Shown here one piece after another: positions 12,383-14,910 of a stretch of 36,357 nucleotides of DNA. Below the pieces are notes generated by a model. It made no database searches. It saw nothing but the letters and a program-made list of their open reading frames with translations, and was not told where the DNA came from. Every line of letters begins with the position of its first letter. Position 1 is the first letter of the stretch. Origin of the DNA: a virus; IMG/VR virus record IMGVR_UViG_3300005589_000064, positions 1-36,357 of that record; one strand, written 5' to 3'. The position numbers were made by a program, and so were the translations under genes.

Positions 12383-12451
12383 TTGACCAACACACCCCAA
12401 CATATGGTATCATACCTTCGCAACCCGTATAGGTTGCGAGGAGGTGAATAT
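12383..12451 (+). promoter_or_regulatory. Integrase leader: promoter candidate and RBS-proximal hairpin
   Basis: TTGACC (12383-12388) and TATCAT (12408-12413) could be promoter elements, but the spacing of 19 is long. GGTATCATACC (12406-12416) is a perfect palindrome. TCGCAACC (12418-12425) and GGTTGCGA (12432-12439) make an 8-bp hairpin directly abutting the GGAGGTG ribosome site (12440-12446). This could tune integrase translation. Confidence 0.45.
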
Positions 12452-13579
12452 ATGTCAGGGAGTGTGCACCAAGGCAAGGATGGCACCGTCTTTATCGGGT
12501 GGTATGACCCTATAGCTAAAAAGCAAACCAAGATCTACAGGGACCGCCGAGGCGAAAAATTTTACACCAAGAAACAGGCGAAGAAGGCTCTCGCCACCAT
12601 GCAGTCTGAAGTCGAAAGAGGGCAGTTTGATATCCGGCTTTACAAAAACCAGACGTCACCGGTCGTGGAGTACCTGTACCAGTGGTATGAGATTGAGGCA
12701 CCCAATTGGGCACCAGCCACAGCGAAGGGGTATCAATCATATATCAAAAATCACTTGGCCCCGTATTTCAGGCGGTCAAATTTGGCTCTACACGAAATCA
12801 GGCTCACTCATTTGAAAATGTTGCTGAACGGCCTGAATTCAATTGGCGGCGCGCCTTTATCCGGCAAGATGAAGTTTAACATCATGGCCTGCTTGCACAC
12901 CTGCCTGGATTATGCATGGAGGGATGGTGAGATTTCAGCGATCCCGCCATTCCCCAAGAAGCGGGAATACCAGATGCAGAAAAAGACCGTTGAGTGGTTA
13001 CCCGAAGACAGGCAAGCCAAGGTCTTTCTGCATATCCCCGAGGAGCATCAGCCAATCTTCCGGTGGATGCAGATGCATGCCAGGAGGCCAGCTGAAGCAA
13101 TGGCTTTGCGACGCGAAGACTACCAGAAAGGCGTGTTTTACGTGCGGCGCTCTATCTCCGCAAACCGGGTCGTCGAGGTCACAAAGACAGGGATGGAACA
13201 CGTCACCCCCATGGTGGATGCGTTTATCCCGTACCTCGACCAAGCTTTAAGGGCCCCCATCGTTTCACAGTTTCTGTTCACCCATGCCCGGTCACGGTCA
13301 GAGGGCAAGCGCTACACCCACGGCGTACTCAACAGGATCTGGAAGGAAGCATGCGAGGTGGTTGGTGAAGATATCGGCCTCTACTCCGGCACAAGACACA
13401 GCCGGGCATGCCAACTGCTCAACGAGCATGGACTATCTCTCACGGATGTCCGGACGGTCCTTGACCATGCCGATTTGCGGTCAACCGAGAAGTACGCCCA
13501 AACCACCGTGGCGAGAAAGAAAGAGTTGATGGAGGGGCGGGTAATTAGACTGCCGAACACAGGAACAGACAAAGCGTGA
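12452..13579 (+). CDS. int: Tyrosine integrase
   Basis: This encodes 375 residues. The start ATG 12452 follows a near-perfect GGAGGTG; TTG 12383 is a weaker alternative. An N-terminal arm/AP2-like domain (residues 1-60), a SAM-like core-binding domain (~66-160) and a catalytic domain are visible. Catalytic candidates are Arg212 (RRPAEAMAL), Lys245 (TKTGMEH), Arg315/His316 (SGTRHSRA), His339 (VLDHAD) and the nucleophile Tyr348 (STEKYAQ). The first His of the usual HxxR box is Ser312. It mediates attP x attB recombination; the attP lies immediately downstream. Confidence 0.92.
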   Translation: MSGSVHQGKDGTVFIGWYDPIAKKQTKIYRDRRGEKFYTKKQAKKALATMQSEVERGQFDIRLYKNQTSPVVEYLYQWYEIEAPNWAPATAKGYQSYIKNHLAPYFRRSNLALHEIRLTHLKMLLNGLNSIGGAPLSGKMKFNIMACLHTCLDYAWRDGEISAIPPFPKKREYQMQKKTVEWLPEDRQAKVFLHIPEEHQPIFRWMQMHARRPAEAMALRREDYQKGVFYVRRSISANRVVEVTKTGMEHVTPMVDAFIPYLDQALRAPIVSQFLFTHARSRSEGKRYTHGVLNRIWKEACEVVGEDIGLYSGTRHSRACQLLNEHGLSLTDVRTVLDHADLRSTEKYAQTTVARKKELMEGRVIRLPNTGTDKA

Positions 13580-13584
13580 GGGGT

Positions 13585-13810
13585 GGGTAAAAAGGTTACA
13601 CCAAACACAAAAAAGGCACCCCTTGAGGCACCTTTTTTGACATGTTTCTGACTTGTATTCCGAAAAATAACTGCCTGAAAACATTATGTATATGGCGGAA
13701 GTGCATGGGAATCGAAACCATGTTGCTTCTCGATTTACAATGTAAATTCAGATATATACGTCACTCAATTTTTCGTTTTGATATGTTTTTGACATGTAAC
13801 CTTTTTACCC
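13585..13810. other. attP: Phage attachment site attP with selC-like core
   Basis: A perfect 16-bp inverted repeat, GGGTAAAAAGGTTACA (13585-13600) and its complement (13795-13810), flanks the core; TTTTTGACATGT recurs at 13634-13645 and 13786-13797. These look like integrase arm sites. At the centre, 13693-13716, the minus strand reads as a tRNA 3' end: T-loop TTCGATT, CCCAT, GCACTTCC, G, CCA. An 8-bp acceptor plus 5-bp T-stem is the geometry of tRNA-Sec. CATGG (13704-13708) and CCATG (13718-13722) are core-type inverted repeats. TTTACA-A-TGTAAA (13734-13746) is a further palindrome. Confidence 0.7.
13609..13638 (+). terminator. Terminator after the integrase gene
   Basis: AAAAAAGG (13609-13616) pairs with CCTTTTTT (13631-13638), with an imperfect interior. 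The T-run ends the integrase transcript. The structure is A/T-symmetric and may act in both directions. It overlaps the first TTTTTGACATGT arm-site candidate. Confidence 0.7.
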
Positions 13811-13851: not shown

Positions 13852-13920
13852 CTGGCCTGCCACGGGAATCGAACCCGCGTTTACAGGGCTGAGAGGTGCG
13901 TAAACACTGGCCCCGCCACG
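13852..13920 (-). other. tRNA-like T-arm remnant
   Basis: On the minus strand, GCGGG TTCGATT CCCGT makes a perfect T-arm, with CTCTCA upstream resembling a tRNA-Glu anticodon loop. GTTTAC and GTAAAC around it can pair. No matching acceptor 5' strand (needs GCCTGCC) was found in the expected 70-80 bases and the anticodon stem does not close, so this is not a functional tRNA gene. It is likely a decayed tRNA or captured tRNA fragment. Confidence 0.4.
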
Positions 13921-13959: not shown

Positions 13960-14154
13960 ATGAAGAGATGGGCATCAGTCGCAAAGTGGCCCTACCCTGA
14001 CGTGAATTTAATGAACGGCGACAATTCATCGGTGGATTACCACGACACCAAAGAGCAGGCCCTCGCAGTGATAAGGAAGCTGAAAAAAGAAGGTTTTGGT
14101 GGTGGAGGGAGATTGTTCCCGATTGAGGTTTTTGTGCAGGAGGTGAAGCCATGA
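13960..14154 (+). CDS. Small hypothetical phage protein
   Basis: This encodes 64 residues from ATG 13960, with AAGGTGG upstream. The sequence shows WPYPDVNLMNGDNSSVDYHD, then a helix (TKEQALAVIRKLKKEGFGGG) and a beta end (FPIEVFVQEV). The layout matches small phage proteins of unknown role that often sit next to ASCH proteins. The stop overlaps the ASCH gene start at 14151 (ATGA). Confidence 0.6.
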   Translation: MKRWASVAKWPYPDVNLMNGDNSSVDYHDTKEQALAVIRKLKKEGFGGGGRLFPIEVFVQEVKP

Positions 14155-14468
14155 AAACACCACTCGACGAACTTGAGTCCGGAGTCTGGCCGAGCTTTAT
14201 TACCCATATCCAGGGTGCAGCGAAAGAAAGGCCGGCCCGCCACACCCTAAAGATCGAAACACAATATTACGGAGCCGTCCTGAGTGGCCTGAAAAAATTT
14301 GAGATCAGAAAGAACGATCGAGGCTTTCGGGTGGGCGATACGCTTGACCTGATCGAGATTGATGGCGGAGAGAAGACGGGGCGTGGGTTATTTAGGCTGA
14401 CCATCAGGTATATTTTCGAGGGAGGGCAATACGGGCTGATGCCCGGCTACTGTATTTTTTGTTGGTAA
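14151..14468 (+). CDS. ASCH/DUF3850 protein with a DsrA-like N-terminal segment
   Basis: This encodes 105 residues. Residues ~30-105 match the DUF3850/ASCH pattern: HTLKIETQYYGAVLSGLKKF, EIRKNDRGFRVGDTLDLIEI, then YIFEGGQYGLMPGYCIF. ASCH folds are PUA-related and usually bind RNA. Family members normally start at HTLKI; here an extra 29 residues precede it. TPLDELESGVWPSF then ITHIQGAAK resembles, from memory, the N-terminus of dissimilatory sulfite reductase DsrA (TP..D.LE.GPWPSFV..IK). No Dsr catalytic region follows. The match needs a profile search. Confidence 0.72.
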   Translation: MKTPLDELESGVWPSFITHIQGAAKERPARHTLKIETQYYGAVLSGLKKFEIRKNDRGFRVGDTLDLIEIDGGEKTGRGLFRLTIRYIFEGGQYGLMPGYCIFCW

Positions 14469-14517: not shown

Positions 14518-14547
14518 AAAGGGGTGTCCGACCAAAGGCGCCCCTTT
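14518..14547 (+). terminator. Hairpin at the start of the UmuD'-like gene
   Basis: AAAGGGGTG (14518-14526) pairs with CGCCCCTTT (14539-14547), one G-U pair. It may end the ASCH transcript, though only three T lie in the 3' arm. It overlaps GTG 14524, so it could also hide that start. Just upstream, CCGGGTTCGAT (14478-14488) and CCGGGAATCGAA (14497-14508) look like tRNA T-arm fragments. Confidence 0.45.
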
Positions 14548-14910
14548 GATATTTCCCCCGCCATGCTCTATAACACCCTCATGGAAATCATCACCGACAC
14601 CATGGACCTAAACGAGTCCCTGATCAAGCACCCCGTCTCCGCCTTTTATTTAAGAGCCACCGGAGACTCAATGACAGGCGCCGGCATCTACCCCGGCGAC
14701 CTCCTCATCGTGGATCGTTCCCTGGAGGCCACAAACAAGACGGTCATCATCGCCGTTGTGGATGGCGAGATGACCGTTAAGAGATTGAGATTGAGGGGAG
14801 ACAGGGCCTTTTTAGAGGCCGAAAACGAAGGATACCCACCCATTGAGATCACCGGAAATATGGATGTTTCGGTGTGGGGTGTGGTGACGCATAGCATTCA
14901 TCAGGTTTGA
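14524..14910 (+). CDS. UmuD'-like S24 protein lacking the cleavage arm
   Basis: The frame opens at GTG 14524 (128 residues); ATG 14563 and ATG 14581 are possible starts and none has a good ribosome site. From DLNESLIKHP on it follows E. coli UmuD closely: FYLRATGDSM with Ser49, GDLLIVDRSLEAT, then VDGEMTVKRL with Lys86. The Ser-Lys spacing of 37 equals UmuD Ser60-Lys97. The N-terminal arm with the Cys-Gly cleavage site is absent, so the product resembles already processed UmuD'. UmuD' activates the UmuC polymerase for translesion synthesis. No umuC is adjacent. P1 HumD is a known phage analogue. Confidence 0.8.
   Translation: MSDQRRPFDISPAMLYNTLMEIITDTMDLNESLIKHPVSAFYLRATGDSMTGAGIYPGDLLIVDRSLEATNKTVIIAVVDGEMTVKRLRLRGDRAFLEAENEGYPPIEITGNMDVSVWGVVTHSIHQV

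Follow-up and report, generated by a model that had tools for sequence, protein, structure and literature searches.

A small phage DUF3850 protein opens with a segment resembling the N-terminus of the sulfite reductase subunit DsrA

The conserved N-terminal TP.LD.LE.G.WPSF segment of DsrA is present in a 105-aa phage protein whose body is a DUF3850 domain (Table 1). The gene lies in a virus record of IMG/VR, 36,357 bases long, which is hereafter called the window. Besides the window protein, at least four mutually unrelated phage ORFs carry the segment. As read from the sequences, this suggests that the segment may serve these phages to attach to the host machinery for sulfur respiration.

Table 1. 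Features of the window (positions in the window) and of the other phage ORFs that carry the segment
Feature	Position	Strand	Length	Basis or description
Phage protein with DsrA-like N-terminal segment and DUF3850/ASCH domain	14151..14468	+	105 aa	ORF; DUF3850 E 1.2e-22; TIGR02064 E 0.0025
DsrA N-terminus-like segment, residues 3-25, TPLDELESGVWPSFITHIQGAAK	14157..14225	+		profile statistics, PDB matches, predicted helices
DUF3850 domain (ASCH/PUA-like fold), residues 31-104	14241..14462	+		E 1.2e-22; AlphaFold2 pLDDT 88-95; Foldseek 3iuw
Shine-Dalgarno AGGAGG	14138..14143	+		7 nt 5' of ATG, read from sequence
Upstream small protein	13960..14154	+	64 aa	ORF; stop overlaps DUF3850-gene start (ATGA)
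Tyrosine integrase near DUF3850 gene	12383..13579	+		PF00589 E 8e-12
S24/LexA-UmuD-type peptidase, just 3' of DUF3850 gene	14524..14910	+		PF00717 E 1.6e-24
L044			107 aa	segment internal, at residue 44, then Cys-rich tail
L046			77 aa	segment N-terminal, MSLLDELESGPWPTFIRDLK
L154			71 aa	segment N-terminal, MSKTPTLEELESGPWPTFMEALKK, then Cys-rich tail unlike that of L044
L152/L156 prophage ORF			143 aa	segment internal, LIEQLENGPWPTFVQQTKGARQER near residue 70

The product of the window gene opens MKTPLDELESGVWPSFITHIQGAAKERPARHTLKIE; its sequence runs MKTPLDELESGVWPSFITHIQGAAKERPAR, followed by HTLKIETQYYG. The ATG is well supported, since a perfect Shine-Dalgarno sequence ends 7 nt ahead of it and the start overlaps the stop of the upstream ORF. 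Judging from this overlap, the two genes are probably translationally coupled; the upstream product had no significant match in the family searches. The gene is located between those of a tyrosine integrase and an S24 peptidase, and the window phage also encodes a lambda-type portal, a GpA terminase, capsid E, Rha and AntA/KilAC. PADLOC gave no match, and neither an Rfam RNA nor a complete tRNA (ARAGORN) was found in the window. On the integrase side, the minus strand of two stretches, at 13690-13723 and 13853-13879, resembles the T-arm and 3' end of a tRNA gene (CATGGTTTCGATTCCCATGCACTTCCGCCA; CGCGGGTTCGATTCCCGTGGCAGGCCA). These are candidate attachment sites and could point to the host.

The body of the protein matched DUF3850 (PF12961) with 80.3 bits, compared with a gathering cut-off of 22.9. 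Foldseek assigned it an ASCH/PUA-like fold with 3iuw as top match (E 3e-8, TM 0.88 by target), while a match to YqfB, an ASCH ac4C amidohydrolase, was weak and at the level of the fold. The DsrA-like segment is absent from 36 of the 36 DUF3850 relatives found in IMG/VR, none of which is closely related to the window gene. These viral proteins bear out the view of the earlier note that a normal DUF3850/ASCH domain begins at HTLKI.

The resemblance of the N-terminus to DsrA was assessed in several ways. When residues 1-33 were compared with the 18,950 models of NCBIfam, the sole match was TIGR02064, the dsrA model (E 0.0011, profile positions 1-24); the whole protein scored 16.7 bits at positions 1-30 of 402. 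By itself, the match to this full-length model is modest (E 0.001-0.003). No Pfam model matched residues 1-33, and the search against all PDB chains returned DsrA sequences only (E 0.006-0.036). Among the PHROGs there was one match, phrog_24411. This family is annotated as being of unknown function, real DsrA matches it at E 8e-59, and it is evidently phage DsrA. A DsrA-only profile was built from 74 distinct DsrA N-termini of the fetched loci, leaving the window out. Against this profile the window protein scored 33.4 bits (E 2.7e-8, 22,754 ORFs), as compared to a top score of 10.9 bits among 200,000 composition-preserving shuffles of the same protein. The DsrA-like character that the earlier note ascribed to residues 3-25 is thus upheld by both the TIGR02064 match and the shuffle control, and the limits it gave for the segment are correct. 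The lack of a significant match to DsrA, which the note named as a refutation, was not what the search with residues 1-33 showed.

Conservation of the N-terminus was scored over 28 DsrA, taken from hosts among the Bacillota and from viral contigs. T1, P2, D5, L7, E8, G10, W12, P13, S14 and F15 do not vary in these sequences, and L4 and K20 are nearly invariant. The window protein retains all eleven residues of this set from T1 to F15, L4 included. In the alignment, one residue is deleted between P and L, K20 is replaced by Q, and the P following G by V, in a column which is itself variable in DsrA (P/K/Q/R). At the sequence level, the likeness of residues 3-24 to the DsrA N-terminus can be regarded as confirmed.

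The predicted structures agree with this likeness. In the AlphaFold2 models the helices span residues 4-9 and 14-25 in the window protein and 4-8 and 13-25 in DsrA, so that the segment is predicted to form, as in DsrA, two short helices with the GVWP turn between them. Block pLDDT values are 57-69 for the segment versus 88-95 for the ASCH body, and 67-71 over the first 20 residues of a DsrA monomer. From these models we infer that the segment is a separate, unpacked appendage which would need a partner. At the DNA level, the identity of the segment to the dsrA compared, all from outside the Desulfobacterota, does not exceed 63-70%, and roughly every second shared codon is different. The likeness is therefore found at the protein level, and recent capture of dsrA DNA is unsupported. 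Likewise, the prophage segment found in genome G349 (see below) differs from the dsrA start of its own host.

Both the N-terminal alignment and degenerate DNA patterns were used to scan IMG/VR, and the returns were mostly true viral dsrA. In addition, the scans gave the non-DsrA ORFs L044, L046, L154 and L152/L156 in phage contigs. The contig of L156 and G349:C74 are one and the same sequence of 35,366 bp, G349:C74 having been found independently by the Bacillota genome search. The scores with the DsrA-only profile are 51.6 bits for L044, 35.3 for L046, 28.6 for L154 and 28.3 for L152, and the top NCBIfam match of each of the four is TIGR02064, inside profile positions 1-31. Outside the segment, the carriers have no common family: they comprise the DUF3850 protein, two different Cys-rich proteins, and proteins of 77 and 143 aa. 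Because a pattern search favours the core of the segment, the carriers were rescored on the columns outside the DNA pattern. L044 and L046 gained +29.7 and +8.7 bits, L154 and L152 obtained -2.8 and -8.7 bits, and the random background had a mean of -45 (sd 9.4) and a maximum of about 0 among 100,000, so that all four stand far above the random mean. L044 comes very close to a perfect DsrA N-terminus; L152, L154 and especially L155 are weaker.

L155 (2938-3592), a 193-aa phage protein with VQLEQGPWPQFVRDVKIKK, is a possible diverged sixth carrier; at 22 bits, and -32 bits outside the pattern, it is indistinguishable from chance and was set aside, as was L195 (16.5 bits). L058, L083 and L190-L194 were judged chance look-alikes. 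In the contigs of L154/L198 and L046, as in the window, the segment-bearing gene and a tyrosine integrase gene are only a few genes apart, which suggests that such genes are integrase-proximal cargo.

The occurrence of the segment was surveyed in bacterial genomes, phages and plasmids. Matches were found in 53 of 398 genomes in the Bacillota search and in 60 of 395 in the Bacteroidota search; in the class of G349 they were found in 76 of 113 genomes, and in two further classes in 43 of 83 and 13 of 22. The Bacillota and Bacteroidota samples, which overlap, total several hundred genomes from outside the Desulfobacterota, the main sulfate reducers, and all their matches are DsrA with the sole exception of the L152 prophage ORF. 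Many full-length host matches were called DsrA by ORF length only. The short ones that were inspected (G444:C12, G451, G410, G947, G963, G955 and G520) proved to be contig-end or broken dsrA. In G444:C12 (L165, 1488-1673), a 61-aa broken dsrA N-terminus, just 5' of a second dsrA with a different N-terminal type, is what is left of an additional dsrA in this genome. Two tandem dsrA-like genes are present in each of the viral contigs L067, L092 and L106. Among the 50,697 phage records of INPHARED there was one significant match, Lau218 rDsrA, plus one at E = 5, and the plasmid search gave nothing.

The only carrier host known is G349, the genome of the L152 prophage ORF, and it has a full-length dsrA (597.7 bits, above the cut-off). 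In G480, a homologue of the L152 protein aligns up to LIEQLEN/LLEVMES, diverges afterwards and is devoid of the segment; this genome has no dsrA above the cut-off, its best score being 41.5 bits. The earlier note had held that finding the segment in phages of bacteria lacking dsrA would speak against its proposal, and no such case turned up at the thresholds used among the isolate phages and the genomes searched, all outside the Desulfobacterota. In the best reading, the segment would be a portable docking element that mimics DsrA and is carried by phages of Dsr-bearing hosts. That the enzyme resembled is the host's own in the case of the window phage is itself something we infer.

These data can be accommodated by a two-part effector, in which an ordinary DUF3850 domain (ASCH/PUA-like, of RNA-binding type) would be joined to a protein-level copy of the DsrA N-terminal helix-turn-helix. 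The tag would bind the partner of DsrA's own N-terminal segment, the first candidates being DsrB or the assembling DsrAB. Once bound, it would park the phage domain on sulfite reductase or compete with DsrA. We favour this DUF3850 effector with a DsrA-mimicking tag, parked on or competing with the host sulfite reductase, tentatively and at slightly below an even chance. The docking idea is strengthened by the recurrence of the segment in unrelated phage proteins, at terminal as well as internal positions. On the other hand, a takeover of the DsrA transcript, which had also been proposed, becomes less likely, since the segment is internal in two of the proteins and the shared codons differ in about half of the cases. 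The segments would presumably have a common origin rather than having converged on one binding site. It is possible, if somewhat doubtful, that a portable DsrA-derived segment on unrelated small proteins steers them to the sulfite-reductase machinery of sulfate- or sulfite-reducing hosts, as a new way of taking over or inhibiting anaerobic energy metabolism.

Alternatively, the segment could bind a general host factor that DsrA also uses, such as a maturation chaperone, or it could result from convergence on one docking motif; in either case the mimicry would be real but its target would not be sulfite reductase. The chaperone NarJ, which binds the N-terminal peptide of NarG, provides a precedent. 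Furthermore, the segment is kept in reductive and oxidative DsrA alike, so its role does not seem to depend on the direction in which the pathway runs. However, DsrA is the only host protein found to contain the segment in the genomes searched (those outside the Desulfobacterota), Pfam, NCBIfam, PHROGs and PDB, and we consider this explanation unlikely.

Still less expected is that the segment is a captured 5' piece of dsrA whose sole contribution was a start codon with signals for translation, or a functionless, neutral relic of a fusion. Its position at the very N-terminus in the window protein, L046 and L154, the strong ribosome-binding site in the window and the recombination-prone nature of cargo genes near an integrase would all fit such an origin, but a captured translation start leaves the internal segments of L044 and L152 unexplained. 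Moreover, nearly all DsrA-invariant residues are retained at about two-thirds DNA identity to the dsrA compared, and the segment recurs independently in unrelated proteins. Finally, chance resemblance is very improbable. The segment has a short core, look-alikes (L190-L195) do arise with relaxed DNA patterns and L155 cannot be told from these outside the pattern columns, but the window was not found by pattern, its 33 bits exceed the 10.9 of the best of 200,000 shuffles and L044 is nearly perfect. Shuffles, outside-pattern residues and dsrA-less genomes lead us to reject chance for the window, L044 and L046, and for L154 and L152 they make it unlikely.

Anaerobic sulfur respiration is driven by DsrAB. 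The viral sulfur genes reported to date are enzymes (PMC8190135). Those known encode working enzymes supplementing the host pathway. If the mimicry reading is true, small proteins that borrow only the conserved N-terminal segment of DsrA would point to phages handling or blocking the enzyme itself. They would also offer a natural probe of why the DsrA N-terminus is conserved, which has had no explanation so far, and a possible source of peptide inhibitors against sulfate reducers. In the papers searched, we found no report that a phage segment copies an enzyme of sulfur respiration, nor any paper on this segment.

The window protein is a DUF3850 protein and not a DsrA. Its N-terminal ~22 residues are like those of DsrA (TIGR02064), phage rDsrA such as Lau218 included, with the alignment starting at profile position 1, and the predicted two-helix shape is the same. 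However, it has 105 residues as opposed to about 400-440, the catalytic body is absent, and its 16.7 bits are below the curated cut-off of 392.85 bits set for the full model. The earlier note rightly saw no sirohaem or Fe-S region, as the Cys motifs and cofactor residues are missing from the sequence. The viral dsrA genes known are complete or near-complete enzymes, or contig-end pieces thereof (PMC8190135). Residues 31-104, on the other hand, are similar in fold and sequence to DUF3850 (PF12961, structure 3iuw), a phage-enriched, PUA-like domain. Fusions of DUF3850 to ParB-CTPase folds are known in phages and prophages (PMC12704722), whereas the partner in the window protein is a segment of a metabolic enzyme. 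In viral molecular mimicry of host proteins, a short host-like segment is likewise carried on otherwise unrelated viral proteins.
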